Positions 27,520 to 48,298 of a DNA stretch of 64,000 nt are shown piece after piece; position 1 is the first letter of the stretch; every line of letters begins with the position of its first letter. Under the pieces are notes generated by a model. The model was given only the letters and a program-made list of their open reading frames with translations. It was not told the origin of the DNA and ran no database searches. The translations under genes and the position numbers were made by a program. The DNA comes from Pseudomonas sp. B21-056 (GTDB taxonomy: Bacteria; Pseudomonadota; Gammaproteobacteria; Pseudomonadales; Pseudomonadaceae), in NCBI RefSeq assembly GCF_026016325.1, contig NZ_CP087203.1, positions 5,766,001-5,830,000 on the forward strand. The letters run 5' to 3'.

Positions 27520-27594
27520 GGGCCTATAGCTCAGTCGGTTAGAGCAGAGGACTCATAATCCTTTGGTCCACGGTTCTTATGTGGTATGCATGTC
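27520..27594 (+). pseudogene. CAU-anticodon tRNA gene broken in its T arm (island junction)
   Basis: The 5' acceptor strand GGGCCTA, the D stem (GCTC/GAGC) and a perfect anticodon arm (GAGGA-CTCATAA-TCCTT, anticodon CAT at 27554-27556) are intact. The body resembles tRNA-Ile2, whose C34 becomes lysidine, more than elongator Met. After CCACGGTTC the sequence departs from any tRNA: the expected CCGTG T-stem arm, TAGGCCC and CCA are missing. A poor alternative T arm (CCACG/TGTGG) and a partly matching acceptor strand TATGCAT can be drawn, so some folding is possible, but I judge it non-functional. Confidence 0.65.
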
Positions 27595-27641
27595 GGTGTG
27601 GCATTTGAACCTCATTTCTGGTAGTTTTGCATCATCTCAGC

Positions 27642-27718
27642 GCCACTGTAGCTCAATTGGTTAGAGCAACCGACTCATAATCGGTGGGTCGCGGGTTCGA
27701 TTCCCGCCGGTGGCCCCA
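27642..27718 (+). tRNA. Second tRNA with CAU anticodon, carried by the island
   Basis: This is a complete 77-base cloverleaf: acceptor GCCACTG/CGGTGGC (one U-G pair), D stem GCTC/GAGC, anticodon stem ACCGA/TCGGT with loop CTCATAA (anticodon CAT at 27676-27678), T stem GCGGG/CCCGC with loop TTCGATT, and an encoded CCA. The discriminator base is C, which is unusual for both Met and Ile tRNAs. CAU can mean elongator Met or lysidine-modified Ile2; sequence alone does not decide. It lies only 48 bases after the broken tRNA. Confidence 0.85.
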
Positions 27719-27759
27719 TCTCCTTGTATATCAAGCACTTCATGAATTCTGCACAACTT

Positions 27760-27784
27760 CTCTGACAACGCTGTCGGAGTTTTT
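27760..27784 (+). terminator. Terminator after the island tRNA
   Basis: CTCTGACA (27760-27767) pairs with TGTCGGAG (27772-27779, one G-T pair) around ACGC and is followed by TTTTT, a good intrinsic terminator between the tRNA and the recombinase operon. Confidence 0.8.
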
Positions 27785-27850
27785 CGTGTGCTAAAAAATC
27801 CTCATTTCAAGACTTTTGCTTGACATGGCAAGTGCAACACCGAAAGCTAG

Positions 27851-29293
27851 ATGGGTGTTGTATTTGGAAATGCGCTCGTGAAAAATTTCATTTTGGTCGA
27901 GGCACCGCTCACAAGCGAAGCTAAACACCTATTGCTTCACCTTGACCCGGATATGCCCGACGAGCTGCGGGAATTCAAGCCTTTTACCCACTACACCATC
28001 TGGCTGGCACGTAGGGGTTATGCCCCCAACACAGCGAAGCTTTATGCCGAGCACGTGGGACGGTTTGTGGATTACGTGTATGAAGCATCAAAAACCCAGT
28101 TCGCGGCGGATGTCGACGTCACAATTGAGACCGTCATCAACAGCTACCAGGCGTATCTGCTGTTCGGTAAGGGCGCTGCGAACCCGATAGCATTGAAATT
28201 GGCTGACAGCCTAGGGAAGGAGAAGCTCACAGGCCAAAACTCCCTAGCGCAGACCATCGAATCGTCGATTAAATGGTTTCTTGATGTATCGGAAACTAAG
28301 AACAGAATAGCGCCAGACCAGTTATTCAGCGCGTTCTACACAAAGCGAGCTGAGTACCGCAGCCAGTATGAGATTTCGGCGCACAAGGCCAATTCTTGGT
28401 TGGCCGCAGTCATTCGTGACTCGATTAAGTCGGTGATGCCTAAGCGCAAGGGAGACAAACTATTTCCCCAGGCAGCACGCAGGGACAGGAAGAACGACCA
28501 AAAACCGTTCAAGACGGTAGCATTTCCCATCGAACGATCCGTGGATCTCATCAGGCAGTCAAAGCCAGCGAAGTCCAAAACTTTCTATAGAGATATGACC
28601 CTCTATTCCCTACTCGCGGCAACAGGCGCTCGTTCGAGCGAGGCCCTGCAGGTGAGGATGCCCGATATCGACGATGATGAGTTCGCAGTTTTCCTCCGCG
28701 ACCCTTTTGCACGCAAAACGCCTGGAATTACAGAGGATGAGTACCAGTTCCTTGCCTGGAAGGGACGGGTGACCGAAATGACGTTCATGATCGAACCCTT
28801 TGCCGGGATGTTCTGGGAAAACCTTGAGAAGTATTTGACCCGTGAGTACAACTCGAGCGTCGACCATGACTTCCTCTTTCAAAACCTCGATGGCAGGCCA
28901 TTCTTCGCTAGCGACCGAAGCAGTCGAGACAAAACCTTCAAGAGCTACGCCCAAAAAGCAGGGGTAGAGGACGTCACAGGCATTAGCGCTCACTCGCTGC
29001 GACATATGTACGGAACCTACACTCTTAATTACTTGCCAGTTCCCGGACAGAGCATTCCAGGACTGCCTCTAGCGTATGTAAAAATCCTAATGGGTCACGC
29101 GAGTGCCTCTTCTACCATGAAGTACGCCAAGCACGACACTGACATAATTGAAGCCTATATCCAACACGCCAATCAGTACGTATCACAACGTGGCGAAGCA
29201 TCTTTCAAGACGATTCGAGCAGACTTCCACTACCGGCAGTTAGAGTTACTCGAGGAAGAAGCCAAGCGTATTGAAGGAGAAAAAAATGATTAA
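27851..29293 (+). CDS. gmtY: Tyrosine recombinase, probable GmtY of a gamma-mobile trio
   Basis: This is a 480-residue phage-integrase-fold recombinase. It has an N-terminal SAM-like core-binding domain and a C-terminal catalytic domain with the catalytic residues visible: R261 in TGARSSEAL, H381 and R384 in AHSLRHMYGTY, the GHAS box and Y425 in MKYAK. It would cut and rejoin DNA at the island ends. It is the first of five overlapping genes. The start has a weak ribosome site, so a downstream GTG is possible. Naming it GmtY rests on the neighbours and sizes; the GInt gin operon is the other candidate class but has three integrases. Confidence 0.72.
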   Translation: MGVVFGNALVKNFILVEAPLTSEAKHLLLHLDPDMPDELREFKPFTHYTIWLARRGYAPNTAKLYAEHVGRFVDYVYEASKTQFAADVDVTIETVINSYQAYLLFGKGAANPIALKLADSLGKEKLTGQNSLAQTIESSIKWFLDVSETKNRIAPDQLFSAFYTKRAEYRSQYEISAHKANSWLAAVIRDSIKSVMPKRKGDKLFPQAARRDRKNDQKPFKTVAFPIERSVDLIRQSKPAKSKTFYRDMTLYSLLAATGARSSEALQVRMPDIDDDEFAVFLRDPFARKTPGITEDEYQFLAWKGRVTEMTFMIEPFAGMFWENLEKYLTREYNSSVDHDFLFQNLDGRPFFASDRSSRDKTFKSYAQKAGVEDVTGISAHSLRHMYGTYTLNYLPVPGQSIPGLPLAYVKILMGHASASSTMKYAKHDTDIIEAYIQHANQYVSQRGEASFKTIRADFHYRQLELLEEEAKRIEGEKND

Positions 29294-32200
29294 TCTCACC
29301 AAAGATATTCTCATTATCAAGTCAGGAGAGGACTTGGAGAGATCGATCAAGGAGGCTATTGCCAAAGCTAAGGCATGTGTTTCAAAGGTACTTTTTGAGT
29401 CCAAGCACATCGCTCCTAGCAAAATCTCAAGCGGCTCCGTTAATGAGTATTACCAGGCCTCCGTCCTACGTTTCTTTAACGACCACTTGGATCCGGTTAA
29501 CGCCCCGGTATACGATGAAGATTGGGTACACAATCTCCATACCTGCACGAAGAAAACTCCGGACGCGAAAATTGCCAAGCAGGTGGTTCCGAAGACCGCA
29601 CACGACTGGATTAACAAGTCTTCACTGGAAAGGCTTGCTAAAGATTCAATATTGATTTTGCATTTTCTCTGGCAGGAAAAAGCCGTACTTCTTCCGTTAG
29701 ATACCAAGAAGCCCACTGGCAGCAACGAAACTAAGAAGAAGCATTTCGAGTTTGCTGCAGCTGACTACACTGAAGTTCTCGCCTTGGTCAGCAAGCCTTT
29801 CGTTCCTCATGTCACATACAAGAACATTCTTGATATAACTACTGTTATGAAGCCGAGTGCCATCAAGAATTTCGAGTGGTATGCGTGGCGGATGATTCGC
29901 GCCACCGACTGGCACCAAATTGAAGACATCAGGCCGGTTGACATCTCTGATCTTATTGAACATCTAATTAAAACACGCCGTGGCGAAATCGACTGGTTCA
30001 TGTATCCAATTGCCCCTGCGGCTTTTCTGAGCTACGTCCAGAAGCTATACCCTGAAAGGTGCCAGCAAGCCACTACCCCTCCAAAAAATGATAAGACAGC
30101 CAGTAAAAAGGCATTAATCTCTGGTGAATTCAACATCCCTGCTGAACACCAAAAAAGCGTCGATCTCTGGTTGAAATATCAAGGCAAGTTTATTCAACTG
30201 CTAAAAACCAAAGGAATGAAGACTTTTAGGCACTATGAAAGCAGCTTCACGGTGCTCAACACGTTCCTATTTAGTGAATATCCTGGAAGAACTGGTCTAC
30301 TTCCACCAGGGCCTCGAGATCTCAATCGTACACACATCGAAGGAGACGGCCAGGTTGGTTTTCTAAGTTATCTTCGCAAGGGTCGGTCGGGCACAGCCGT
30401 TCAAAAGTCCCTGTATCACTTGGAAGCTTTGTTTGACTACCTGATAGTCAACTCTAGCGCCGATGAGGAATTATCTGGCTTCGTTAATCCGATTTCCCAC
30501 ATCGATTATCCAATTGTAAGCAGAAGCTTTGGCACCAACAAGCCAGCTTTCGAATCCGAGCACTTTCCCATTCTGCTGCAATACTGTTACGCAATTGAAT
30601 CTTTCTCAACGCACCTTGCCGACAGGGTTCATGAAGAGCAGATCAATCTGTATGACAAAAAATTCAGGGCAGATATACCCACAAAGAACTGGAACGAAGC
30701 CCAGAAAGTTATTCAAACTGAAAAACTCGGGTACGTACCGGTTGTTTTCTATCGCAACCCAGACTTTGACGCCAGTCAGCCAAAGTCAGATATCAACCGC
30801 CCGATGAAATATGAAGCTCTACACCTTCTCCCTAGGTTCGTAGTGCCCATTATCGAACACAGTGTCGAAAGGAATGGGCAATGGGTTTTCTATCCCCAAC
30901 TGAACTACATTCGACACAACATCGTAGCGCTGGAAACCGGCGTTCGAAGCATTCACATTCGGTGGCTGGAAAAGCTAACCTATGATATGCACATTGATCG
31001 ATCTAGACCGCTACCGCCTCTTTGTAAGTTGCGAATCAACACAGACAAGGCAAATGGCGCTTGGGATTCCACTGTTTCCAGAAACGTAATTTATGTTTTA
31101 GACCGCCAAAAGGCCATGATTAAATGGTTCAACGATCCGTCAATGGATGTCCCTGTTTGGTACGACTACCATGAAGAAAGCCCATTTGGAAAAATCACCT
31201 CCCTGTTCCCTAAGGGCGAAACTCCTGGTGTACTGACAGGAGAAGCCTATGGCAAATACTTCAAGAGGCTTGTCTATTCTTTTGATTTGTTCTGCCGATT
31301 CCAGCTGGGAATTAATACTACGAACGCGATGCCAGAAGCTGTGGGTGACCTAGAGTCAATTGATGCGCCTCTCGATTACTTGGCGGCACTGAAACTCGAA
31401 GCACAAGCCTGTAAGCTCATCGAGCATACTCCGCACTCTTGTCGAGTTTCAGTAGTATCCGAATACATCAGGGTATTGCCGCCACATATCATAGGCGCGT
31501 TCATCACGGGGCAAGCCACTGAAGAACACGTCATGTATTACGCGAAAGTCGACCCTGCATACCTGAAGTCGGTAGCCCAGTTTCAGAAGATGAGTGTCGA
31601 GCAGGGCTGGCTCATTGATCGTCCAGCAATGTCCAATATTAAAGCCGAAGATGTCTCCTCAAAGCTCCAGCAGGCTTTCCGTCGAGACAAGGAAAAGTCT
31701 CTGATTGATTTCGGCGCCATCTCCTTTGACCGCGAGATGAAGGACGATGTCGTGTCAGGCGTCAGGGCCGCAAAACAGCGCCCAATTGATTCGCTGGCTT
31801 TCATGCCCACACACATCTGCCCGTACGGCAATCACTGTCCAGCGGACGTGGTGAAAGACCTGGGTGCCATCCCTGGACTGAGTACGCCATGCGGTGGTTG
31901 CTACTACTCAGTCAAAACTGTCGACCATCTGCCTAGGATTCACGGCCATATCCGAGCTTTAACTGATGAATGCAGCGAGCTAGAGGCGTACATCGCAGAG
32001 GCCAAAAGGAATGGTGCATCGCTAGAAAGCCTTGTACAGAAAGCCAACCGTCGCAAATCCCTGGCTACGGAGATCATCTCCTGGAGCGTCACAGCACACT
32101 GTCTCGAACAAATGTATAGCGAGATTAAAACGCGTGAAAGTTTCTTGGTAGAGAAGCCTGAAATCGTGTCAGAACATCTGGAACGTCTGGAGCTGAAAGA

Positions 32201-32519
32201 GCACTCGCTCTCCAATCTCATCGCCCGCACTGCTGAAGCCAAGTCACATGCAGAGTATTTCACTCCACAACTGAACCAGCAGCTCAAGGTAGCCAGGAAC
32301 AAGCTGCTGGCGTTCACAGGAGACTTCAACCGCATGCTGGAAGAAGCCCCGACTGGTTTCACGTTAATCGATGAATTCAGGGGACTGATTCGATCTGCCT
32401 GTGAAGTCCTCGGCATTTCGCTACACGAACTGAGCGATGCAATGACCAAGCCCATGGCTTTGAATCGCCCTGATTCGATTCTGAAGCTAATTTCGAGCCC
32501 TGGGAGTGTCCCAGCATGA
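29286..32519 (+). CDS. gmtZ: Large recombinase-like protein, probable GmtZ
   Basis: The ATG at 29286 has AAGGAG at ideal spacing and gives 1077 residues, overlapping gmtY by eight bases. Although far larger than a normal integrase, it keeps the tyrosine-recombinase constellation in order: R554 (TGVRSIHIRW), H717 and R720 (HSCRVS), a GQATEEH segment in place of the GH box and Y751/Y752. About 100 residues further on, C845, C851, C870 and C873 form a possible zinc site, followed by helical, coiled-coil-rich sequence to the end. Size and placement fit the VPA1269/GmtZ family of gamma-mobile-trio islands. Confidence 0.65.
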   Translation: MINLTKDILIIKSGEDLERSIKEAIAKAKACVSKVLFESKHIAPSKISSGSVNEYYQASVLRFFNDHLDPVNAPVYDEDWVHNLHTCTKKTPDAKIAKQVVPKTAHDWINKSSLERLAKDSILILHFLWQEKAVLLPLDTKKPTGSNETKKKHFEFAAADYTEVLALVSKPFVPHVTYKNILDITTVMKPSAIKNFEWYAWRMIRATDWHQIEDIRPVDISDLIEHLIKTRRGEIDWFMYPIAPAAFLSYVQKLYPERCQQATTPPKNDKTASKKALISGEFNIPAEHQKSVDLWLKYQGKFIQLLKTKGMKTFRHYESSFTVLNTFLFSEYPGRTGLLPPGPRDLNRTHIEGDGQVGFLSYLRKGRSGTAVQKSLYHLEALFDYLIVNSSADEELSGFVNPISHIDYPIVSRSFGTNKPAFESEHFPILLQYCYAIESFSTHLADRVHEEQINLYDKKFRADIPTKNWNEAQKVIQTEKLGYVPVVFYRNPDFDASQPKSDINRPMKYEALHLLPRFVVPIIEHSVERNGQWVFYPQLNYIRHNIVALETGVRSIHIRWLEKLTYDMHIDRSRPLPPLCKLRINTDKANGAWDSTVSRNVIYVLDRQKAMIKWFNDPSMDVPVWYDYHEESPFGKITSLFPKGETPGVLTGEAYGKYFKRLVYSFDLFCRFQLGINTTNAMPEAVGDLESIDAPLDYLAALKLEAQACKLIEHTPHSCRVSVVSEYIRVLPPHIIGAFITGQATEEHVMYYAKVDPAYLKSVAQFQKMSVEQGWLIDRPAMSNIKAEDVSSKLQQAFRRDKEKSLIDFGAISFDREMKDDVVSGVRAAKQRPIDSLAFMPTHICPYGNHCPADVVKDLGAIPGLSTPCGGCYYSVKTVDHLPRIHGHIRALTDECSELEAYIAEAKRNGASLESLVQKANRRKSLATEIISWSVTAHCLEQMYSEIKTRESFLVEKPEIVSEHLERLELKEHSLSNLIARTAEAKSHAEYFTPQLNQQLKVARNKLLAFTGDFNRMLEEAPTGFTLIDEFRGLIRSACEVLGISLHELSDAMTKPMALNRPDSILKLISSPGSVPA

Positions 32520-33184
32520 GCAAGGGTGCAAAACCTGGCCAAAATCGCTTTGCAGGCTCCCAGAAGAGAAATCGCGAGTTCAGGATCAGCCGGATAAAGG
32601 ATGACGTTGTCCCGAGACTGAAGACGTTTGTGGGGAAGACATCTTTTGACGGCATTACCCCTTTTTCCAGGTTTTGTGCAGAGCTTTACAACGCCGATCT
32701 GCCCGTAAACGAGAAGAAGATAGGCTATCGCACACTGGTTCAAAGCACCGATTATTGGGCATTGATCGGCCCACTGTTCCATAGATATTGGGACTCCGCC
32801 GGCAACATGGAATCCACGAAGAACAAGCTAGTCGAGAAGCTATCAGCGCATCGGGCAGATGGGCTCCAAGCAGAGACAGAAAGGCTGAAGAAAGAAATAG
32901 AGGCTCTCAAATCAGCACTTCGTACTCACGGGGCCACCCTGGCTCCCATTTCGGATTCAAAGCACAGCGATCAAGCCTTCATGACGAAGTTTGATAAGAC
33001 CTGCCGTGCCCTTATGCTGGTGCTCAAAGCGAGCGACGGCATGTTCGTTGTTGACATGAAGGCCGGAAAAATCACCTGCACATTTGATGATCTCGAACCT
33101 GCTGAAGGGCTTGTTCCAAAAGATATTGCCGAACCCTTCGTCCTTTGGATGAAAGCCAAGGAAAGCACTAATGGCGACCGGTGA
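32516..33184 (+). CDS. gmtX: Coiled-coil island protein, probable GmtX
   Basis: This 222-residue protein has a basic N-terminus (NRFAGSQKRNREFRISRIK), a central charged coiled coil (about residues 105-140, ETERLKKEIEALKSAL) and a small globular C-terminus. No catalytic motif is visible. Its ATG overlaps the stop of the large recombinase (ATGA) and its end overlaps the next gene by 14 bases. As the third gene of the operon it matches the position and size expected for GmtX; the function is unknown. Confidence 0.55.
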   Translation: MSKGAKPGQNRFAGSQKRNREFRISRIKDDVVPRLKTFVGKTSFDGITPFSRFCAELYNADLPVNEKKIGYRTLVQSTDYWALIGPLFHRYWDSAGNMESTKNKLVEKLSAHRADGLQAETERLKKEIEALKSALRTHGATLAPISDSKHSDQAFMTKFDKTCRALMLVLKASDGMFVVDMKAGKITCTFDDLEPAEGLVPKDIAEPFVLWMKAKESTNGDR

Positions 33185-33644
33185 TCAAAAGCGCTCTCCG
33201 TACGACCGCTACAGGGACTATGTGCTGCAGCTTGAACAGGCTGGAAAAAAGTTTCCTGTGAATCAGTTTGGCGCCGTCAACTTCAGCAAAATCGCTGATG
33301 AATGTGGTAATCGTAGGCAGTGGTTTTCTGAAAGCGCCAAGAAGATCTTTTGCTCACAGGGCAAAACCCTTGAGCAGGTCATCGCGAAGGACATTCGCCG
33401 CATAGGCAGTGAGTTTGTTGCGGCCAAAGATCCTGAGTCTCTGGCGATTGATATGGCGGATTCGAAAAGTCGCGAAGCGAATCGGTTGCGAGTAATGCTT
33501 GAGCAAAAGTCGAAGGAAAACGAACTGCTCCGCGAGCAAGTTGAGCAACTCTCTGCCGAGTTGCGGTTGCTTCGCACATCTGCACAGGAAATCAGTAGCC
33601 AGCAGGACTTGATGATCGACTCCGGGCGGTCATTCATCCTATGA
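33171..33644 (+). CDS. Small unknown protein of the recombinase operon
   Basis: This 157-residue soluble protein has a basic N-terminus, a segment FSKIADECGNRRQWFSESAK that could be a helix-turn-helix, and a strong C-terminal coiled coil (about residues 105-140, many E/L/R heptads). It overlaps the genes on both sides (14 and 4 bases), so it is made with the recombinases and helicase. A role as DNA-bending or accessory factor is an inference from context. Confidence 0.6.
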   Translation: MATGDQKRSPYDRYRDYVLQLEQAGKKFPVNQFGAVNFSKIADECGNRRQWFSESAKKIFCSQGKTLEQVIAKDIRRIGSEFVAAKDPESLAIDMADSKSREANRLRVMLEQKSKENELLREQVEQLSAELRLLRTSAQEISSQQDLMIDSGRSFIL

Positions 33645-35806
33645 GCAATCTGTCGAGCGTGATCCAGGTGAGCTCGGTGAAGCCAGGCAGTTTTGGCGGT
33701 GCAGTCTTTTCCGGGCGCATCATTGGCCAAAACAAAATTTACACATGCAGAGCAAGCTATAAAGTCATCACCCGCATTCCTCAACCCGGTGAATGCTGGC
33801 AGTTCAAAGGCTCGATCACAGGGCATGATCAGTACAGGGATTTCGTTCTGATCGAAAGCTGTCACATCGTAAACCTGCCCATAGCGGCATATGTGGAACG
33901 ATTGCTGATAAAGCATCCTGCATTTCGCGGGCTGTCATTCGGCAAAGCGAAAGTCTCGAAACTGGTCAGGGCATTTGGCGCAGAAAACCTTGCTCAGGCA
34001 TTGACTGCAGGCAGAGTCAGCCACCTGGCGGAACTGATTAATCCTGATCTCGCCCAAAAGGTCGTGGATGCCTGGAGGACACTGCAGGATGAGATTTCAA
34101 CAATTGAATTTCTCATGGAGCACGACTTCGATCCTGGGCTCGCCAAAAGCGTTCTCAAGGTTTGCCAGACGGATACGGTAGAGCGCCTGAAGCTTAATCC
34201 GTACAGCCTCATTGCGTTTCAAGGCATCCACCCAAACATGTGGAAAATCGTAGACGCCGCAGCAGCCAAGCTAGGCATACCTCGTGATGACCCACGCAGG
34301 CTGGCCGGCCTTGTGGAGAATTTGCTCTATGTGCGCTTGGATCAGGGCCATACCGCATACGAAATAGAAGAGCTAAAAGCCGCCCTGATGCCGAAGCTTC
34401 CATCCGCCAGACTGGTAGACCAAGCTATCGAATGCGCCCTACAAAGGCGTGCTGTATGCGTTAAGAAGGATCAAGGGACGACGCTTATCCAGCCACTGGG
34501 AGCGGCCCTTGTCGAAAGTAAACTCGAGCAGCGAGTCGCGAGTCTACTGTCCGCTCAGGCCTCATTGCTTCACGGTTCTCCGCAGGAACTGGAGCAAGCG
34601 ATTGAAGATTACTGCGCACACGGTGAGAGCGTGCCTGGACACTCACTCACCCGAGACCAGAAAAGCGCAGTGCTGATGGCGCTTACTAATCGCATCAGCA
34701 CGCTGACTGGATTTGGCGGTACGGGCAAGACAACGGTGCTGAAAGCCATCGTTGATATAGCCTCCCAGCACCGCCCTGTGCATGTCTTAGCACTGAGCGG
34801 AAAAGCCAAGGAGCGCGCCAAGGAGTCTGTTGGCCGAGACACCTACACGATCCACAGTTTCTTGATCAAAATCAGCACTGCAAGCTCAGGGCTCAGCACT
34901 GGAGGCGACCCTCTGGTAATTATCGATGAATCCAGCATGGTAGACATCGCCTTGATGCTGAAACTGCTGAATGCCTTTGCGAAGAAAGAACTGTCTCTCT
35001 TGCTAGTAGGCGATACCGGTCAGCTATCTCCGGTTGGTTATGGAATCTTCTTCCATGCACTGGCCAAATCGAAGGCGATACCGTCAACCCACCTGATCAA
35101 GGTTCACAGGTCTACCGGCAACAGTCATCTTCAGAACATCGCCATGAAGATTAGATCTGGTCACCTGGACACCTTGCCATTCTGGAATGGCGAGCGCGAT
35201 GGGGTTTATCTGATCCCCTGCACAAACACGCAGGACATGCTGACACACCTCGCGAAGATCAAGCAGATCATCCCTGACGCTCAGATCCTGACGCCACACA
35301 TGTCTGATCGCATGCCGGATTCCGGGCACAAGATAAACAAACATCTGCAAAGCGCCCTCCAACATACAGACGAGACGCAGGGTATCTGGATGGGCAAATA
35401 CTGGCTGCGAGTTAACGACCCCGTCATCGTCACTCAGAATAGCTACGAGCATAATCTGTTCAACGGCAACACCGGGATCATGACTGGCGTTACGTCAATC
35501 GATGGCCAGACTTCAGGTGTGTTTTTCTTCAATGGGCTCGAAGTGACCCTCTCTAGGATGGACTTGTTCGGGCTGGGAATGAAGCTTGCCTACGCCATAT
35601 CCATTCATAAGGCGCAAGGCAGCGAGTACGAGACGTCGATCCTTTGCACTCTGAGTCAAAGCGAATTTGTGGAACGAAGCATGCTTTACACAGCCGTCTC
35701 ACGATCTAAGCGGCTGGCCTTGATCCTAAGCACGCATGACATCATGCAGCAGGGGGTAGCTCGCCCGAACCGAAGTGACACCCTCTGTGTGGGCTTCTCG
35801 GTTTGA
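33641..35806 (+). CDS. RecD2-like superfamily 1B DNA helicase
   Basis: This 721-residue helicase has an N-terminal OB-like region, a helix-hairpin-helix stretch (FRGLSFGKAKVSKLV, residues 95-115), Walker A GFGGTGKTTVL near residue 358, Walker B VIIDESSMVD, motif III GDTGQLSPVGYG and the late AYAISIHKAQGSEYE and YTAVSRSKR motifs of the RecD/TraA family. It would unwind DNA 5' to 3'. The four-base overlap with the preceding gene ties it to the mobility operon, suggesting a role in processing or replicating the excised island. It is a little shorter than RecD2. Confidence 0.75.
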   Translation: MSNLSSVIQVSSVKPGSFGGAVFSGRIIGQNKIYTCRASYKVITRIPQPGECWQFKGSITGHDQYRDFVLIESCHIVNLPIAAYVERLLIKHPAFRGLSFGKAKVSKLVRAFGAENLAQALTAGRVSHLAELINPDLAQKVVDAWRTLQDEISTIEFLMEHDFDPGLAKSVLKVCQTDTVERLKLNPYSLIAFQGIHPNMWKIVDAAAAKLGIPRDDPRRLAGLVENLLYVRLDQGHTAYEIEELKAALMPKLPSARLVDQAIECALQRRAVCVKKDQGTTLIQPLGAALVESKLEQRVASLLSAQASLLHGSPQELEQAIEDYCAHGESVPGHSLTRDQKSAVLMALTNRISTLTGFGGTGKTTVLKAIVDIASQHRPVHVLALSGKAKERAKESVGRDTYTIHSFLIKISTASSGLSTGGDPLVIIDESSMVDIALMLKLLNAFAKKELSLLLVGDTGQLSPVGYGIFFHALAKSKAIPSTHLIKVHRSTGNSHLQNIAMKIRSGHLDTLPFWNGERDGVYLIPCTNTQDMLTHLAKIKQIIPDAQILTPHMSDRMPDSGHKINKHLQSALQHTDETQGIWMGKYWLRVNDPVIVTQNSYEHNLFNGNTGIMTGVTSIDGQTSGVFFFNGLEVTLSRMDLFGLGMKLAYAISIHKAQGSEYETSILCTLSQSEFVERSMLYTAVSRSKRLALILSTHDIMQQGVARPNRSDTLCVGFSV

Positions 35807-35917
35807 ATATCAAACAGGTCGTTAGCCCTACAATATTGTGGGCAGGGCCTTCGCTTCAGGCGGCTTACCTTGCTTGTATGATCGCGGGATCCGCGCCCAA
35901 TGCCTCAAGGTAGGAGA

Positions 35918-36475
35918 ATGTCATTGAAGCTGTTCACAAGCCTTTGGAATCTCATCAACCCCGACAGTCGCCCTGACTGGGAGAAAGCGCGAGAACGCGA
36001 GTTCATCTTGGCAGCGAACAGCCTAAAAACCCTTTCGGTCACCGACCGGGGCGGCATGTCTATCGACCCCGAAGAGCTGCGCGACCAGATAGTCGCGTCG
36101 CGTGAGCAGTTGAAGCATCTTGTCCGCAGGCCAGAAGCGCCTAACCGATCATTCAGAGCAGCGGAAGATGTCCAGGTGGAACCGTTAGTGAGTTCCACCG
36201 TAGAGGCTCCGGCGAGCGCCATGGACTGTATTGAGGTGGTGGCATGGCGTCGGTTGCAGACCGGCGCTGCTGTGCGCTACGTGTGCCTCCAGTGTACAAG
36301 TTCGGAGCGATTCGCTGTCGCTACAGCCAGTCTGTTCACAGAGGCCATAGAGAGTCTCCCGACTTGGGTCGATGGTAATACCAACAGGCAAGTTGCAAAT
36401 ACACTTCAGAGCGGTGGACTCCATTGGTACGCGACTTTGAGTGAGGCGATGAATGCTTGGGATGCGGAGCTTTAA
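35918..36475 (+). CDS. Unknown island protein
   Basis: I prefer the ATG at 35918, with CAAGGTAGG upstream (185 residues), over the ATG at 35900. The N-terminus (SRPDWEKAREREFI) is charged and helical; the C-terminal half is a compact alpha/beta stretch (VVAWRRLQTGAAVRYVCLQC). No known family is recognised. It stands alone between the recombinase operon and a repeat. Confidence 0.6.
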   Translation: MSLKLFTSLWNLINPDSRPDWEKAREREFILAANSLKTLSVTDRGGMSIDPEELRDQIVASREQLKHLVRRPEAPNRSFRAAEDVQVEPLVSSTVEAPASAMDCIEVVAWRRLQTGAAVRYVCLQCTSSERFAVATASLFTEAIESLPTWVDGNTNRQVANTLQSGGLHWYATLSEAMNAWDAEL

Positions 36476-36496
36476 TGACCCTGAGCGTTCAGTTGG

Positions 36497-36602
36497 GGCG
36501 TGCCCCTGCGGGGAGGGGCTGTCGTAAACCGAGCCTTGGCGCGAGCGCCAGCATCTCGGCCCTTCGGGCTTCCATCCCACACGACTGCGCGCTCCGCTTG
36601 CC
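36497..36602. repeat. Island intergenic repeat, copy 1
   Basis: It shares with 37687-37788 the ordered blocks GGCGTGCC, AACCGAGCC, CTCGGCCCT, CGGGCTT, CATCC and CTGCGCGCTCCGCTTGCC. The centre can fold into short GC-rich hairpins. It has no coding potential that both copies share. Confidence 0.65.
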
Positions 36603-36698
36603 ATGCTTATCCAGCCGTGTGATCACCTTCCTTCAGTTCGAGCGGACAACCAGGCTGAGCTAGATCCAAAGCTCACTGGGTTCTACCCCTTTGAAAGT

Positions 36699-37163
36699 TC
36701 AAGCTTCAAAGAAAGCACGGTAGGCGTTCATCAAAGCAGTTGCGTCATTCAAAGCTCGGTGGTGCCTGGTTGTCGGCAGTAGGCGATAAATGTCACTTGC
36801 CGCCTCCCTACCCACCAACACCTCCAAAGGCTTCAACTCGAAGGTAGGTATCAGATCTGCTGCCTCATAAAGGACGTCGAACCAAAACACGTCTTGAGTT
36901 GAGTCGCTGCAAAGCACCTGCCCTGAAAACAGCTGATTCATTCGTTCCGCCACGGTCTTGGGGGTATCACCTTCCTGAAGCAAATGATCCTGAGTGAGAC
37001 CATGCATGTCTTGCGCATCGAACGACCAGTGCGTCCAATAGCGGGCGGGCTTAATCAGCGAGCTGTAGACGCTCTCATTCGACACGACGGCGACTTCGAT
37101 AGGATAGCTATCCGGGGCTATACCTGAGGCTTCGAAATCGATAAAAAAAGAAGGCCGTTCCAC
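36699..37163 (-). CDS. DEDDh-type 3'-5' exonuclease
   Basis: A GTG at 37163 preceded by AGGAG with a seven-base spacer gives a 154-residue protein that starts at the catalytic domain, VERPSFFIDFEASG; the open frame to 37301 upstream is not needed. The Exo I motif FIDFEASG, an Exo II-like aspartate in the middle and the Exo III motif HHRALNDATALM are present, so it is a small DnaQ-fold nuclease. A GTG start and strong SD agree. It lies 85 bases downstream of 37249-37650 on the same strand. A second exonuclease of this fold is at 50269-50709. Confidence 0.75.
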   Translation of the reverse strand: MERPSFFIDFEASGIAPDSYPIEVAVVSNESVYSSLIKPARYWTHWSFDAQDMHGLTQDHLLQEGDTPKTVAERMNQLFSGQVLCSDSTQDVFWFDVLYEAADLIPTFELKPLEVLVGREAASDIYRLLPTTRHHRALNDATALMNAYRAFFEA

Positions 37164-37248
37164 TCTGTAGCTCCTGTTTTGAGGGTGCGACTTCACCACG
37201 CTACACCGACTGCTTGTGTTTGCGCCGCCATCGCTCGAACCAGCCGTT

Positions 37249-37650
37249 TTAGGTGGTAGCAGCCTGTGCAACTCGGTGATTTTGCAGATGCTGCATCTCA
37301 TGCTGCCATTCAGTAAGAAATTTATCCCAGTCTGCGGCGTAGGGCCCTTCAGGAATTCTGGTTGATCCGATGCTTGCTTGGTGGAAACGCTCTCTCCAGG
37401 GTTGCGGAATAGTCTGCTCCAAGATGATGTCGGTTCCGGAGTTATGACGAATCACCGAGACAGAGTTACGAACATCTATGAGTTCGAGTGGCTTATCGCT
37501 ACAGGAGGTGTCACTTCGCTCTTGGTCGTCGAGATCATTGAGGATGGCAAGGAGGTCGGGTGCATTTGAATCACCGGGCTGGAGGGTGGCAAGCGCCCAC
37601 AGAACCCTTCGCCTAGTTCTCTCACGCTCGCGGAGTAAATCGCAGGTCAT
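37249..37650 (-). CDS. Unknown island protein
   Basis: This 133-residue protein has an excellent ribosome site (AGGAGG, five bases before the ATG). It is acidic overall, with an arginine-rich N-terminus (RERERTRRRVLW) and a C-terminal helix. No domain is recognised. It is probably co-transcribed with the exonuclease gene that follows. Confidence 0.6.
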   Translation of the reverse strand: MTCDLLRERERTRRRVLWALATLQPGDSNAPDLLAILNDLDDQERSDTSCSDKPLELIDVRNSVSVIRHNSGTDIILEQTIPQPWRERFHQASIGSTRIPEGPYAADWDKFLTEWQHEMQHLQNHRVAQAATT

Positions 37651-37686
37651 TTAAGCCTCCTTTTGACAAGGCTGGGCGGTGGTTCT

Positions 37687-37788
37687 GGCGTGCCGCCTTA
37701 GGCGGGTGGCTGGCGTGAACCGAGCCGTGGCGAGCCACGGCTCGGCCCTACGGGCTTTCATCCAGCACGCCTGCGCGCTCCGCTTGCC
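37687..37788. repeat. Island intergenic repeat, copy 2
   Basis: This is the second copy of the roughly 105-base element at 36497-36602. Here the centre contains a near-perfect palindrome, CCGAGCCGTGG-CGAG-CCACGGCTCGG, that can form an 11-base-pair stem. A 118-codon open frame running through it is judged spurious. Confidence 0.65.
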
Positions 37789-37869
37789 CGATACTCGCAA
37801 GGAAAGGAAAGTCTGGCGCAGCGATCCGGAAGCCGGGGCGGGTGTAAGCGTACCCTACGTACAGGACTA

Positions 37870-38427
37870 TTACTTGTGGAGCTTACTGAAGCGACTCGAT
37901 AGCGCTGCGGCTTCGGTAGTTTCCCAAGCTTCAGGATCAGACGTAGCGTTGAACATCAACAATGCCCTCCACAGGAAAAAGGCGGCAACCAAGCTCGACT
38001 CAATTACTGCAAATACCGTAGTGGTATACATATAATCTGAATTTTCTCCAAATAAGAAAAGCACTGGAAATATCGAAGCTATCCAGCCGGCGACGAAAGT
38101 TAAGCAGAATGCGATGGCCGCAGTGACCGTCAGGAAAAGCGGGACTTGATATCTATACTGGGTTGCAAATGATTTCTCGCCGTTTTGCTTCGCTACGCCG
38201 TACAAGATGCCTGTGTTTTTTTCCTTATTATTACTTTTTTTAAAAAGTCCGTACAAAGTTACACTCTCGCCGACTTCTAACTCTTCGTAAAGCTTGTTCG
38301 ACACTTGCAGATTTGGGATAACTGCACCATCAATGCTGACTTTAGCTTTATGTCCACCGTTCATTCGATCAACAGATCGAACGTAGTCAACTTTTCCTGA
38401 AACTTTCACGCAATCGAACTTCATCAC
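37870..38427 (-). CDS. Unknown two-helix membrane protein
   Basis: This is a 185-residue protein (GTG at 38427 or ATG at 38424). The first 90 residues look like a small soluble beta domain (VKVSGKVDYVRSV, GESVTLYGLFKK), followed by two hydrophobic helices (about residues 95-125 and 133-160). No family is recognised. Its product is probably an inner-membrane protein with an N-terminal cytoplasmic or periplasmic beta domain. Confidence 0.6.
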   Translation of the reverse strand: MMKFDCVKVSGKVDYVRSVDRMNGGHKAKVSIDGAVIPNLQVSNKLYEELEVGESVTLYGLFKKSNNKEKNTGILYGVAKQNGEKSFATQYRYQVPLFLTVTAAIAFCLTFVAGWIASIFPVLFLFGENSDYMYTTTVFAVIESSLVAAFFLWRALLMFNATSDPEAWETTEAAALSSRFSKLHK

Positions 38428-38729
38428 TCACTATCCCTGCCTTCGCTCAAAAATGTGGATCTGGTTCTTGCCAAGACGTCGCTCAGTGACTATTGCAGGC
38501 GGGCTCACGCGGGCCATAAACGTCGGACTTGATGAGCGCGTCTCCAATCGAGACGTCCCCGGGCGTGTCTAAGGTGCTGCTCTCATGACCAATCCATCAC
38601 CAATCCAGACATAGCGCCGCTAGGATAAAACGACTGCCTGGCAAGCCATATGTCACGATAATATCACTATGGTCTGTTTATCGAAACACGCTTGCCGTGG
38701 CTCTATCCTCAGTTTTGAGGATCCGACCC
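38428..38729. other. Divergent gap upstream of the HTH regulator gene
   Basis: There is no gene in these 302 bases. AT-rich sequence at 38650-38690 (TGTCACGATAATATCAC) and a CCTCA/TGAGG inverted repeat just before the regulator start are candidate promoter and operator elements for the two divergent genes. Confidence 0.4.
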
Positions 38730-39197
38730 ATGCATCTGAAAGAAGCGCTGGCAGGAGCATTGCGTGGAGCTCGTGCTCATCAGGGGTTGAGTTACGAAGA
38801 GTTGGCGGGGGCAACGCACAGAACGTACGTGGGGAAGCTTGAGCAGGCCCGAGCGAACGCGACGTTGGAGAAACTGGACGAGATCGCTGACTATCTAGGC
38901 CTCGACCTTTTGACTATGGTCACTCTCGTCATTGCTGCGCAGGGTGACGAACTTCCATCCGAGGCTTTGCAACGTACTGCCATGCGAATCAGGGAATTCG
39001 AGATGTCTGGAGGGTGGCAGTTGGTCGAGGAGCAATTCAGTGACGGAAAGCTCATTAAGCGCTCCCAAGGCAAGCCAAAGCGGCCCGTTAATGCGGAATA
39101 CATTCGAGCCTTGAAAGCGCAAGGTCTTGACCGGAAAACAATCGCTGAAAAACTCGGAATTGCACGGACTACCGTTCAGAAGTATTGGAATACATAA
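38730..39197 (+). CDS. Double-HTH transcriptional regulator (XRE plus resolvase-type HTH)
   Basis: The ATG at 38730 gives 155 residues starting MHLKEALAGALRGARAHQG. Residues 5-65 form an XRE/Cro-type helix-turn-helix (LSYEELAGATHRTYVGKLEQ). The C-terminal 35 residues (IRALKAQGLDRKTIAEKLGI) form a second, resolvase/Hin-type helix-turn-helix. The same two-headed layout recurs at 47248-47703. It probably represses a nearby promoter; its target is unknown. Confidence 0.75.
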   Translation: MHLKEALAGALRGARAHQGLSYEELAGATHRTYVGKLEQARANATLEKLDEIADYLGLDLLTMVTLVIAAQGDELPSEALQRTAMRIREFEMSGGWQLVEEQFSDGKLIKRSQGKPKRPVNAEYIRALKAQGLDRKTIAEKLGIARTTVQKYWNT

Positions 39198-39347
39198 ACC
39201 TCTAGGTTATCGCGATCCCTCTTTCTCTACGTGATGTCTTTCGTGCTCATGGCTGCGGTGTATCCTTGGGCAAGGTAGGCGCTTGTGGTGTTGCCCATAA
39301 CGTAGAGAGCAGGTTCGGATGGCTGAAATAGTGGGGGTATTTGGTCG

Positions 39348-40184
39348 GTGAAGCACGTCAGACTGATTCGCCACGGGGAAAGCGCCGCGAACGCTGGAGA
39401 AGCCAGTTCGGATCATGCGAGCATCCCGCTAACGCCAAAGGGTGTGGAACAAGCGCACTTGGTGGCCAGGGCATTCGCCCAGGCCCCAGATCTGATCGTT
39501 GCCTCGCCGTTCTCCCGAGCGCAAGCAACTGCAATGCAGACAGTGGCTGCTTTCCCTTCAGTGCCGTTTGAAATATGGCCCATTCACGAGTTCACCTACC
39601 TTGAACCTGCACGGTGTATCAACACGACCGTTGCCCAGAGACGAGCTTGGGTGGAGGAATACTGGGCCAAGTCAGACCCAGCGTTCACGGATGGTGAAGG
39701 CGCCGAGTCATTCCTGGACTTTATATCTAGAGCTCAGTCTTTCTTAGATAGAATTGCAAAGCATCCTGCCCAGGACGTCGCCGTGTTTTCACACGGGCAA
39801 CTCATCAATGCGGTGGCTTGGCTGATTGAGTGCAGGCCACAGAAGATTGACGGTCAAGCTATGGCCGAATGGCGAGAGTACGAGATCACTAATCACGTGC
39901 CTAACTGCTCTGGTTACAAGCTTACCAAGCACCCAGACGATGCCGGCTGGAGAGTAAGTCCTGGGGAGTTGCGAATTGGCGTAACTCAACGCGTACCAGG
40001 CAGATCCTACCAAGCGGTTCGCGATCCCGAGCGCCTGGTGATTGAGGAGCGGGCCCAGGCCCTATCGGCTGCAGGCTACCCGCTGCCAGACGATGATCCG
40101 GCTATGTACGCTGAGCAAAGGCTGCTCGAGGCAAGAGAGGCTGCAGGTTTATTACCCTCGCACTCTCCTGGCAGAAAACTGTAG
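39348..40184 (+). CDS. Histidine phosphatase (phosphoglycerate mutase-like) protein
   Basis: A GTG start gives 278 residues. The catalytic phosphohistidine motif LIRHGESAANAG (residues 6-17) and the second histidine in VFSHGQLINAVAW (near 148) are intact, so it is likely an active phosphatase. The roughly 80-residue C-terminal extension has no recognised domain. Its substrate cannot be told from sequence. It lies in island cargo after the HTH regulator. Confidence 0.8.
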   Translation: MKHVRLIRHGESAANAGEASSDHASIPLTPKGVEQAHLVARAFAQAPDLIVASPFSRAQATAMQTVAAFPSVPFEIWPIHEFTYLEPARCINTTVAQRRAWVEEYWAKSDPAFTDGEGAESFLDFISRAQSFLDRIAKHPAQDVAVFSHGQLINAVAWLIECRPQKIDGQAMAEWREYEITNHVPNCSGYKLTKHPDDAGWRVSPGELRIGVTQRVPGRSYQAVRDPERLVIEERAQALSAAGYPLPDDDPAMYAEQRLLEAREAAGLLPSHSPGRKL

Positions 40185-40215
40185 CGGGAGTGCGAAGAGG
40201 GAAGGACGTTAGCGA

Positions 40216-40242
40216 GAGGTGTCACCTGGCTGGAGACACCTC
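40216..40242. terminator. Hairpin between convergent genes
   Basis: GAGGTGTC and GACACCTC form a perfect 8-base stem, placed between the stops of the phosphatase gene and the convergent csbD-like gene. It could serve both as a bidirectional transcript end, although a T run is lacking. Confidence 0.45.
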
Positions 40243-40250
40243 CTCCCCGT

Positions 40251-40499
40251 TCAACGACGAAAAATACGATTCATCAAGATCAACGCTGCAGCACCAATCG
40301 CGAGGGCGGCGACTGGTTTTTCTTTAACGAACGTGGATACGCTATTCAGTGTATCGCCATAGGTTTTATTCAGCTGACCAGATGCTTGATGTCCCGCACC
40401 TTCAGCTTCCATCTTCGAATCACCAATCAGTTTTCCGACCGCGCTCTGCGCCTTGCCGGCCAGCTTTTCTGCTACACCTTCTACCTGTTCGCTCTTCAT
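40251..40499 (-). CDS. CsbD-like stress protein with C-terminal membrane helix
   Basis: This 82-residue protein starts MKSEQVEGVAEKLAGKAQSA, the CsbD repeat (K/E-rich amphipathic helix, GKLIGD), followed by a C-terminal hydrophobic segment (PVAALAIGAAALILMN). Such proteins are induced by general stress and their action is unknown. Confidence 0.8.
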   Translation of the reverse strand: MKSEQVEGVAEKLAGKAQSAVGKLIGDSKMEAEGAGHQASGQLNKTYGDTLNSVSTFVKEKPVAALAIGAAALILMNRIFRR

Positions 40500-40685
40500 G
40501 ATTCATCAGACCTTCGCGTGTGAGTGGGGAGTTCCATACAGCCCTGGTCGAGTGGCTACCAGCACGACTTTAGGGGCGTGCGCCTGATGATTAGTTCAAT
40601 GATGATGAGCTGTAGGGACTGTCAGGAAAGCGTCTACTCGATACCCATGACTTGCGATGATGCATTTTTTAAGGAGGCAACATAA

Positions 40686-40895
40686 ATGCCCAGTGAATAC
40701 TCGCTCTCAGACGTTCTGGAAAGGATGTACCAAAACCAGCTGGCCCTTGAGGCTGCGCTCATGGAGCTGACCCTCCAGGTGGAAGCCCAGGGACATGCGG
40801 AAGTCGGCGAGAACGTCCGTGGTGCGCTTTACACAATTGGTGAGAACGCGGGGCACATAAAACAGGGCTTGGCCCGGCTCAAAAAGCTCCCATGA
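40686..40895 (+). CDS. Small helical protein, first of a coupled pair
   Basis: This 69-residue all-helical acidic protein (LERMYQNQLALEAALMELT) has a strong ribosome site AAGGAGG eight bases before the ATG. It overlaps the next gene by four bases. The small-then-larger overlapping layout is reminiscent of a toxin-antitoxin pair, but neither sequence matches a family I know. Confidence 0.65.
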   Translation: MPSEYSLSDVLERMYQNQLALEAALMELTLQVEAQGHAEVGENVRGALYTIGENAGHIKQGLARLKKLP

Positions 40896-41389
40896 GGCAG
40901 CCGCTCTTTGATTTTGATCTCAAGCGTGTGTCACGTGAGCACTACATTACCGGCAAAGCTGCGATCAATTTTCCACATCCTGAAAGCACGACGGGCGGGT
41001 GGCATTTTCTGTCGTATTTCGACCGGGAGGCTGGGGTCGTCAAGGTATCGTTGGCGGGCATTCACTATCCAGATACCACCGACTTTTTTGGCGATGCGGG
41101 CGTAACTGACGTAACTGACCAACTGTTTCAGCGTGGTTGGTCGGAAGGGGGGCGAAAACTCTTTATGGCTGATCACTACCGAGCCGTAGCCGACATGATT
41201 GCGAAATGGGCACTCAGCGAAACGAAACATTGCAGCGTTGAAATTGACGAGTGGTTTCCGGCGTCAAATGATAAAAAGCGGTTGGTAGACCTTATTACTA
41301 ATGGGATGCCGAAGATCTGCCATCGTGCAAAATCGGAGAAAGCTGAAATCTGGTTAAACTCGCAAACGAGCCGTTCTATTTGCAGGTAA
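40892..41389 (+). CDS. Unknown protein, second of a coupled pair
   Basis: This is a 165-residue soluble protein with mixed alpha/beta sequence (INFPHPESTTGGWHFLSY) and a C-terminal basic tail (CHRAKSEKAEIWLNS). Its ATG lies in the ATGA overlap with the 69-residue upstream gene, so the pair is made together. No motif is identified. Confidence 0.6.
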   Translation: MRQPLFDFDLKRVSREHYITGKAAINFPHPESTTGGWHFLSYFDREAGVVKVSLAGIHYPDTTDFFGDAGVTDVTDQLFQRGWSEGGRKLFMADHYRAVADMIAKWALSETKHCSVEIDEWFPASNDKKRLVDLITNGMPKICHRAKSEKAEIWLNSQTSRSICR

Positions 41390-41480
41390 ACCAGGCATCG
41401 CCAGCAGCCCTCTTACACATTGCTTCAAGCTGATTTCCGGTCGCCGATGGTGAGTGAAGGAGGGGGTGTGGCAAGGACAA

Positions 41481-42281
41481 TCACCCGCCCTGACTTGCAG
41501 GACTTACAGTTAGTTGGCTATTCGATTGAGGTTCTGTCAGTGGCACCCAGCGCAACCCCAGCCCCTTGATCAAATAGCGATTAGTCCGGTCAAAGTCCTG
41601 ATCGTCCGAGACGGTGAAGCTGCCTGAGCGGAAGGATATGAGATTCATCTCCAACAAAAGAGTAATGGCCGGGCTGATGGCCGACCGAGGCACACCTGTC
41701 AGATCCATAATCCTGTCGTAGCTGACGATTGTAAGCCCATCGCGCCCTGTTAAATCTGCTTCAGAACGACGATCTTTGTTCCGAAGAGCGAGAAGCAGGA
41801 TGTAGATTTTCAGTGCCATTAGGGACAGCAAGCTGTTGAGCTTGAAAGCTCGGAGCTTGAAAAGGTGTTTTCTGCTAACCGCAGGAGCATCACCCTCTTT
41901 TCCTCTTACGCGGTAGAGCCAGCTCTTCGGAATCTTTGCGTAGCCTTCATCCTCAAGCCAACGGCAGACGTAAAGCAGCGAGCCGTCACGAGCCTTTGAG
42001 CTGTCGCTCCGGATGAGCCCATTGGCCAGAAGAATTCGCAAAGACCTGGCGATCACCAGCCGGGAATGCCCCAGCAAAATTCCAAGCTCTTCATAAGTGG
42101 TCTTCACGAGACCTGAACGAAAGTCTGCGCGGGTGCAAATAGCTATGTAGGTTTTGAGCGAAGCAATCGAAGCATTCGTATGCAGCGCGCTAACCATATT
42201 TCGAGCGTCCCTGTGCTTGAACTCTCGTAACCCCCCGGCCATTGCCCAGCGATTTGGCATCTTGGCCCAGCTCATCTTCAT
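41481..42281 (-). CDS. Winged-helix DNA-binding protein (replication- or partition-like)
   Basis: The ATG at 42281 follows AGGAGG and gives 266 residues (MKMSWAKMPNRWAMAGG). Two winged-helix units are readable, one near residues 55-115 (TTYEELGILLGHSRLVIARS) and one near 175-235 (VSYDRIMDLTGVPRSAISPA), the layout of plasmid initiators and some island regulators. The start overlaps the stop of a 36-codon gene. Function is inferred from fold only. Confidence 0.65.
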   Translation of the reverse strand: MKMSWAKMPNRWAMAGGLREFKHRDARNMVSALHTNASIASLKTYIAICTRADFRSGLVKTTYEELGILLGHSRLVIARSLRILLANGLIRSDSSKARDGSLLYVCRWLEDEGYAKIPKSWLYRVRGKEGDAPAVSRKHLFKLRAFKLNSLLSLMALKIYILLLALRNKDRRSEADLTGRDGLTIVSYDRIMDLTGVPRSAISPAITLLLEMNLISFRSGSFTVSDDQDFDRTNRYLIKGLGLRWVPLTEPQSNSQLTVSPASQGG

Positions 42282-42388
42282 TTCGACCTCCTCAACAAAG
42301 CGAAGCTGAGTACAAGGGCAATGCACAAGGCAAGGTTCAGCGGGTCTGCCGTCAGTGCCTGCTGAATCATCAAGATCATGTCGTTCAT
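42278..42388 (-). CDS. 36-residue single-helix membrane peptide
   Basis: From ATG at 42386-42388 the frame encodes MNDMILMIQQALTADP followed by a hydrophobic helix (LNLALCIALVLSFALL) and a basic end RRSK; it stops in an ATGA overlap with the winged-helix gene. AAGGAG lies ten bases upstream. Coupling, a real membrane helix and positive-inside tail make it credible. Confidence 0.6.
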   Translation of the reverse strand: MNDMILMIQQALTADPLNLALCIALVLSFALLRRSK

Positions 42389-42622
42389 CTGGAAACCACT
42401 CCTTCGAGAATTAGTGGTTCGAAAGTACGATCTTCCAAACAATGTATCTAGATATAGGCGGATTGACTACTCAACTGAGCGAATGCCTATTTTTATTGGT
42501 TCATTGGGCTTCTACGCTCAAATCCATCAGTTCATCTGATATCTAACTATTTCAATCAGAATTGACATTCTGATGTTCAAAGTATTAAAAATGATTAACT
42601 CATTTTTCCGGAGGGTGAACGA

Positions 42623-43051: not shown

Positions 43052-43371
43052 CCCCACGTCGGTTAAAAGAGGCAGAGGTGATTAGTCATCACAACTGATA
43101 CGCAGGACGCCCTTCCTGACTAGACCTCCAAAATCACTCTCCTCCACAGCTTCGCAGCAAGGCTCTGGGTCGTTGGAAGCAGGCGACAGTCTCAAACGTC
43201 GCCATCCGTCCCAGCTGTATCTACGAGCAAGAGAAACTGCTATACGAGGTCATCTGGTGGCTATAGGTTTGTTGCAAATAGTCCGGTTCTGTTTTGTGGA
43301 GCCGTGACGAACCTGACCCTATAAGTTAGGCAGTTTTCTCTCATTTTGACTTTCTCAGCTCAGGGCTAGAC
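43052..43371. other. Gap before the Gabija-like operon
   Basis: There is no gene in these 320 bases. A CCTATAAGTT at about 43318 and TTGACT at 43348 are weak promoter-like elements in front of the nuclease gene. No repeats or structured elements stand out. Confidence 0.4.
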
Positions 43372-47241: not shown

Positions 47242-47247
47242 ACAGGG

Positions 47248-48256: not shown

Positions 48257-48298
48257 TCGCAGGCGCACTTCGCGGGCCTGCTCAACACGAGATACACG

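Follow-up and report, generated by a model that had tools for sequence, protein, structure and literature searches.

Genomic islands of a recombinase family in Pseudomonas very probably insert by breaking a single-copy tRNA gene of the host and supply, inside one island end, a complete replacement tRNA of the same isoacceptor, on which the cell would then depend. One such island occupies a large part of the window, i.e., the whole stretch of 64,000 nucleotides of Pseudomonas sp. B21-056 that was analysed, which is part of a complete 6.45-Mb genome. A previous, sequence-only reading had placed a mobile-type island at a CAU tRNA, with two tyrosine recombinases, a small third protein and resistance and defence genes as the cargo that follows. 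These points stand, whereas its assignment of the island to the gamma-mobile-trio (GMT) does not.

The island spans window position 27577 to genome base 5835734 and its right end thus lies beyond the window. Its extent of 42.2 kb (27577-69734 in full coordinates, i.e., window numbering extended into the next 60 kb of the genome) assumes that the 6-bp spacer is the exchange region. The following features were found, positions labelled L006 being located in the flank to the right of the window:

27520..27576, plus strand: 5' part (positions 1-57) of the split host tRNA-Ile2(CAU)-type gene, running into TTATGTGGTAT
27571..27576, plus strand: attL spacer of 6 bp, CGGTTC; the attR counterpart TGGTTC is at L006:5735-5740
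27577..27587, plus strand: left island end TTATGTGGTAT; the right end has the reverse complement ATACCACATAA
27642..27718, plus strand: complete replacement CAU tRNA (ARAGORN; Rfam, 72.2 bits), 65 bp inside the left end and co-directional with the split gene
27760..27779, plus strand: terminator-like hairpin 3' of the replacement tRNA (one found versus 0.7 expected by chance in the stretch)
27851..29293, plus strand: tyrosine recombinase, 480 aa (Pfam PF00589, E 4.4e-14)
29271..32519, plus strand: large recombinase, 1082 aa from a TTG start (1077 aa from the conserved ATG at 29286), recognized by alignment and a weak GmtZ match
32516..33184, plus strand: third protein of the trio, 222 aa, of no known family, its gene overlapping that of the large recombinase
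33171..33644, plus strand: 157-aa protein, encoded by an overlapping gene after the trio
33641..35806, plus strand: RecD2-like helicase, 721 aa, its gene overlapping that of the 157-aa protein
35900..64000 and on to L006:5734, no strand assigned: cargo with Gabija GajA/GajB, fluoride and arsenic resistance and a PD-Lambda-5-type pair near the right end
L006:5736-5760 (genome 5835736, full coordinate 69736): host tRNA positions 53-77, preceded by ATACCACATAAT, 42 kb from the 5' part

The intact replacement tRNA, the right end outside the window, the 157-aa gene and the helicase gene go beyond what the sequence-only reading had described. Its broken tRNA next to the trio is borne out by the CAU tRNA split at 27520, with positions 53-77 found 42 kb away. 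The host gene is cut within the T-loop and intact through position 57 (...CGGTTC). Both junctions were read and the tRNA is rebuilt at neither of them, so that the junctions show what distinguishes tRNA-dependent integration, namely insertion into a host tRNA gene that is not rebuilt. Since the missing half is present on neither island end, the insertion would have destroyed the host tRNA. A guessed tRNA 3' end gave no match when searched in the own genome; the actual host 3' half, located in the flank right of the window, differs from it by one base. Among 66 tRNA matches in the host genome (Rfam), those with a CAU anticodon comprise three initiator tRNAs, one elongator tRNA-Met, the split gene and the island tRNA. 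The split gene has C4-G69 and C5-G68, a combination that we take to indicate the tRNA-Ile2 type, and it is the only tRNA-Ile2(CAU)-type gene of this host. In the window genome, tRNA-Ser(UGA) and tRNA-Gly(CCC) are single-copy genes as well.

The replacement tRNA is divergent. Only 55 of 78 aligned columns are identical between it and the host tRNA, and it therefore did not originate from the target at insertion. It is intronless and carries C at discriminator position 73 (window 27642-27718), which is unusual for an isoleucine or methionine tRNA, so that charging of the intronless form with isoleucine is uncertain, although isoleucine is the presumed identity of the CAU replacement. The same intronless sequence is present in L054 and, as judged by eye, in other intronless loci. 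Part-length matches to the replacement tRNA (27646-27715) were found in 595 phage records, the best being a Morganella phage with 91% over 70 bases; there are hints of a phage origin. A TATAAT hexamer ends 14 bp upstream of the split gene and is present in 12 of 12 Ile2 loci, while a consensus promoter scan detected no full sigma-70 consensus at the locus. Judging from position and direction, the replacement may be transcribed from the promoter of the host tRNA.

With respect to the recombinase module, the open reading frames 27851-29293, 29271-32519 and 32516-33184 confirm the overlapping proteins of 480, 1077 and 222 residues described before. Most relatives of the first recombinase start ten residues later. 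The large recombinase conserves R559, K593, H722, R725 and Y757, presumably the tyrosine-recombinase set, together with four cysteines (13 aligned proteins with 17-77% identity to the window protein), and both enzymes are predicted to be active recombinases. The predicted structure of the large recombinase had a mean pLDDT of 31 and was left out of the analysis. The 157-aa protein and the helicase occur together in eight of 11 close loci; they are absent from L056 and L093, and L091 ends before both. Between the window genome and G032 they are 99% identical while the trio reaches only 74-76%, and for this reason the two genes seem to move separately from the trio. The third proteins of the Ile2 clade could not be shown to be homologous to those of the Ser clade (hhalign probability 10%). 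In Gly-clade islands (L103:7091-9348, L104:7005-9364) the trio is followed by a small protein, 23% aligned to the 157-aa protein of the window, and a 618-619-aa protein without Pfam family.

The cargo after the helicase amounts to about 34 kb, in agreement with the resistance and defence genes expected there. It includes Gabija (GajA, E 4e-108; GajB, E 3.7e-49) and, close to the right end, the PD-Lambda-5 pair (B, 9.6e-125; A, 4.4e-248). A fluoride block at window 51643-57633 encodes CrcB, a DUF190 protein, a CLC-type transporter and additional copies of enolase and pyrophosphatase, both established targets of fluoride, and contains two fluoride riboswitches. Arsenic genes encode ArsB, ArsC-family and low-molecular-weight-phosphatase-type proteins, an FMN reductase and an ArsR-type regulator. 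No phage structural genes were found among ten open reading frames scanned with PHROGs or among the subset scanned with Pfam and PADLOC.

Relatives of the large recombinase are present in 31 of 398 sampled Pseudomonas genomes, with close relatives (65-100% identity) in eight of the 31, window genome included, and distant ones at 23-31% identity. In a named genome collection, the protein was found in P. alliivorans (93%), Pseudomonas sp. ICMP 561 (70%) and P. matsuisoli (67%). It had no match on plasmids or in phage records of the collection searched, and a class-wide set of 369 genomes yielded no match at E 1e-20 apart from the own genome. A search for the left-end string GGTTCTTATGTGGTA returned 11 of the 398 genomes, as compared to none of 398 for a backward control; ten of these matches are located in split tRNA-Ile2 genes, and the remaining one (G226, locus L119) lies outside any tRNA and is due to chance. 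Comparison with strains lacking the island, as had been proposed, is provided by the 388 of 398 sampled genomes that are without the insertion by the left-end pattern; the segment is thus not common to all related strains, which would have refuted the earlier reading. None of the ten sampled genomes with the insertion contains an intact full-length host tRNA-Ile2, the next best match being the elongator tRNA-Met. The tRNA query matches all 398 genomes, and among the matches listed the island-free G007 and G023 have a whole tRNA gene with 90% identity to the query.

A split tRNA combined with a full replacement of the same isoacceptor was found in 21 of the 31 genomes. Eight of these concern tRNA-Ile2, five tRNA-Ser(UGA) (G258, G226, G338, G247, G098) and eight tRNA-Gly(CCC) (G186, G038, G183, G153, G026, G051, G264, G326). 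The split tRNA-Ile2 with the same island end is found in all eight close genomes and, of the three named records, in L054 and L055; in the third, L056 from P. matsuisoli, the host 3' half is at 14322 and the left end was not recovered. The string search for the island-end pattern also revealed G168 and G192, where the islands measure 8.8 kb and 12.2 kb and the recombinase module is lost, G168 retaining a truncated first recombinase only and G192 no recombinase, while both keep an intron-type tRNA. Together with G168, G192 and the RefSeq records L054 and L055, the 21 genomes make up 25 resolved loci. In all 25, the replacement has the anticodon and the direction of the broken gene. Its start lies 65-66 bp from the island edge for Ile2 (12 loci), 62-65 bp for Ser (five) and 42-44 bp for Gly (eight), and it is found at the 5'-half end even in G038, G098 and G264, in which the orientation of the module to the tRNA is inverted. 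Ten of the 31 relatives are without the full arrangement in the stretches read, which counts against the proposed reading. Five of them have a tRNA 3' half alone at the island end (G015, G152, G299, G074, G112), the left half having been sought in these and others without success, and five show no tRNA arrangement in the stretches read (G126, G167, G257, G359, G391; G126 and G167 are on short contigs).

The Ile2 replacements occur in two forms. Six of the eight close genomes and L054 carry the intronless form, while in G094, G033 and L055 the anticodon loop of the replacement is interrupted by a group I intron; G168 and G192 likewise have the intron type. Coordinates of intron-bearing island tRNA-Ile2 genes are:

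L055:8050-8368: island tRNA-Ile2, group I intron in the anticodon loop
L092:2320-2641: island tRNA-Ile2, group I intron in the anticodon loop
L093:2865-3178: island tRNA-Ile2, group I intron in the anticodon loop

At Rfam gathering thresholds there was no match to the intron; a targeted search with RF00028 (gathering score 50) gave E 2e-6 and 2.5e-5 (31.5 and 27.8 bits) for two of the five intron-type loci, and the assignment in G094, G168 and G192 is based on ARAGORN and similarity. A tRNA-Gln with intron called in L206 and L211 was discarded as spurious because of its position inside the recombinase region. In L056 (1280-1340, at 1311), a 3' piece of an intron-type replacement is joined to unrelated sequence, perhaps by another element nested inside the replacement tRNA. 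In G338 and G247 (Ser) and G026 and G326 (Gly) (L096, L098, L209, L216), the tRNA split at the native locus itself has island-type sequence, which suggests either serial replacement or that this is the native form in those lineages.

Phylogenetic analysis of 32 family rows and five GmtZ proteins, leaving out G004, whose protein is truncated at a contig end, and G359, which lacks a long open reading frame, yielded one recombinase clade per tRNA target. The Ile2 rows form a single clade (ten rows, 100/100), in which L056 is labelled by its 3' half. The same holds for the Ser rows (nine rows, 100/100; five resolved, three with a 3' half and one without resolved arrangement) and for the Gly rows (13 rows, 100/99; eight resolved, two with a 3' half and three without resolved arrangement). 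The order of the three clades is unsure, as long branches meet according to a program warning. A profile built from 13 of the 32 members scored gave 376-1473 bits for these members and at most 27 bits for GmtZ proteins. Conversely, the window protein scored 45.7 bits with GmtY (two distant relatives, 44.3 and 41.1) against an NCBIfam cut-off of 340, and 23.1 bits with GmtZ against a cut-off of 600; among five relatives scanned with GmtZ, three scored 27.5, 50.4 and 52.7 bits and two had no match. The 222-aa protein matched no NCBIfam model at E 10 in a library for which the presence of the GmtX model was not confirmed. True GMT modules exceeded the GmtZ cut-off in 13 of 249 genomes, and with one further locus just under it a tRNA was present in the left flank of 0 of 14, a count that applies to about 6 kb each and would miss a left end further off. 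The string GTTCTTAT is found also in four of the 14 GMT loci, never within a tRNA. Membership in the gamma-mobile-trio, which the sequence-only reading had favoured, is thus ruled out by GmtY and GmtZ scores far under the cut-offs and by the separate clade; by these comparisons the module is a distant relative and not a member.

The border sequences bear on the mode of exchange. The left 6 bp read CGGTTC in ten and AGGTTC in two of the 12 Ile2 loci, and in 10 of 10 islands with both ends read the attL spacer matches the partner base of the host T-stem. In seven of the ten the attR spacer differs from attL, the first base being T in G000 and G052, G in G207 and G032 and A in G094 and G168, while G033 has GAGTTC; in G367, G004 and G192 the two are the same, so that these three are uninformative. 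Wherever the two spacers are informative (all seven islands), attL has the base of the host and attR the foreign one. The islands thus share with SEs a 6-bp spacer between inverted end repeats, with the host spacer at attL and a foreign one at attR. As described for SE/Tn554 in the text consulted, the circle carries 6 bp of the previous left flank to the new right end, and no empty site has been detected for SEs (PMC10214605). On this indirect evidence, integration of the islands probably follows a strand-biased route of this kind.

Taken together, we propose that the element is a tyrosine-recombinase island for which the T-loop of a single-copy tRNA gene would serve as insertion site, in this case that of tRNA-Ile2, the reader of AUA. 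Insertion would proceed by exchange in the 6-bp spacer and would destroy the host tRNA. A complete tRNA of the same isoacceptor would be brought in by the island at a fixed distance (about 65 bp) from the end next to the 5' half and with the orientation of the split gene, such that the host tRNA's own promoter would transcribe it. The cell would live on the island tRNA and could not lose it, and strand-biased, SE/Tn554-like integration would not readily return an empty site. More tentatively, the swap of an essential tRNA could be the normal life cycle of this recombinase family. Strand-biased insertion would keep the host gene unreturned, the cell would be tied to the island without a toxin through an indispensable RNA, each clade would have evolved with one tRNA both targeted and carried, and host tRNA genes would in time be exchanged for foreign ones.

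Several other explanations have to be weighed against the proposed swap. One is an ordinary tRNA-targeted island, with a portion of the tRNA on attP, a target that integration rebuilds and an incidental spare tRNA. A rebuilt tRNA at the junction is given as the usual rule for tRNA islands in the texts consulted (PMC4383910, PMC8371274), but for the resolved loci this explanation is refuted by the two junctions, neither of which restores the tRNA, and the limited agreement of replacement and host gene (55 of 78 columns) also speaks against it, so that we consider it hardly credible. It is also very unlikely that the host simply tolerates the loss, AUA being a rare codon, and that the island tRNA is a passenger serving AUA-rich island genes. 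AUA is indeed rare in the eight host open reading frames counted (4/5525 codons) and tenfold commoner in the nine of the island (32/4422), the latter being our own selection, and the intronless tRNA is phage-like and has C73. On the other hand, a mere passenger is at odds with an isoacceptor that agrees with the broken gene at all 25 resolved loci and across three different tRNAs, with the near-fixed spacing at the 5'-half end and with retention of the tRNA in the two islands that lack a full recombinase module (G168, G192). In addition, tRNA-Ile2 is, to our knowledge, essential in the bacteria studied so far.

That the module is a divergent gamma-mobile-trio, SE or GInt for which the tRNA target is a local peculiarity appears rather improbable. 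Such a classification would fit the overlapping genes for two tyrosine recombinases and a small protein, the weak GmtY and GmtZ matches and an SE-like 6-bp spacer with inverted end repeats, but scores far below the curated cut-offs, the separate clade and the absence of a tRNA from all 14 GMT loci in the stretch read argue against it, and tRNA is nowhere mentioned in the consulted text of the SE (PMC10214605) and GInt (PMC5385486) papers. A serious alternative, though still an unlikely one, accepts the swap and holds that ordinary cut-out and paste-in recombination restores the host tRNA on excision, which would make dependence reversible. The two host halves would in fact rejoin into a full tRNA, and GInts leave empty sites in some strains according to the part of the report consulted (PMC5385486); against this, the distribution of spacer bases in seven of the ten islands, foreign at attR and host at attL, is that of SEs, for which the consulted text reports no detected empty site (PMC10214605). 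We therefore prefer the swap with strand-biased integration.

Breaking and replacing a tRNA is already known from phages. Mycobacteriophages show tRNA-dependent lysogeny (Guerrero-Bustamante and Hatfull, 2024; PMC10865867): these phages are temperate, have a single integrase and a core of about 10 bp, and their need for the tRNA was shown by experiment. The islands differ by two recombinases, a 6-bp spacer, a replacement fixed beside the 5' half, a separate recombinase clade for each of three tRNA targets and a group I intron in some replacements. In the text consulted, the authors of the phage study leave prevalence beyond their own phages open and call for a survey; Pseudomonas and genomic islands have 0 occurrences there. 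In S. meliloti, two prophages inactivate tRNA-Leu(UAG) and carry a similar tRNA, and thus resemble the islands in combining a broken tRNA with an element-borne substitute, but these are two instances, both prophages, without a recombinase family or fixed architecture described in the part consulted (PMC11476347). Tycheposons are reported to be bordered by tRNA-Met (PMC10872708). As far as other recombinase systems are concerned, the islands resemble the gamma-mobile-trio in having a smaller and then a larger tyrosine recombinase, accompanied by a small protein, and in a weak profile similarity. The islands share with SE/Tn554 two tyrosine recombinases, one of them large, inverted end repeats, a 6-bp spacer, target specificity and the host 6 bp at attL with foreign 6 bp at attR, and Tn554, like the window module, has three proteins (PMC10214605, in the part consulted). 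SEs, however, have the four core proteins IntA, Tfp, IntB and Srap (PMC10214605), whereas the window order is recombinase, large recombinase and small protein instead of intA-tfp-intB-srap; this distinction is one of gene order, not of sequence. With GInts, the islands have in common a recombinase operon at one end of a cargo island and a staggered exchange of about 6 nt, but GInts encode three integrase-type proteins plus GinD (ginABCD), compared with two recombinase genes here by gene content, and the group studied targets an ABC transporter gene (PMC5385486, in the part consulted).

No report of tRNA break-and-replace by non-phage islands was found in the open-access literature searched. 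What appears to be new is that the tRNA-dependent principle is applied, with fixed architecture and target-bound clades, by a lineage of recombinases that has no close relatives among the phages of the collection searched. The finding would mean that tRNA-dependent integration is not confined to phages but is also used by islands whose cargo includes genes for defence and for metal or fluoride resistance, and it points to a likely role for island-borne tRNAs. The combination of a half tRNA, a fixed gap and a full tRNA of the same isotype provides a search signature, and island finders that assume a rebuilt tRNA may misread such loci. The arrangement suggests a toxin-free means for an island to become indispensable as well as a route for the horizontal replacement of essential tRNA genes and, should the strand-biased route prove correct, the swap could hardly be reversed.
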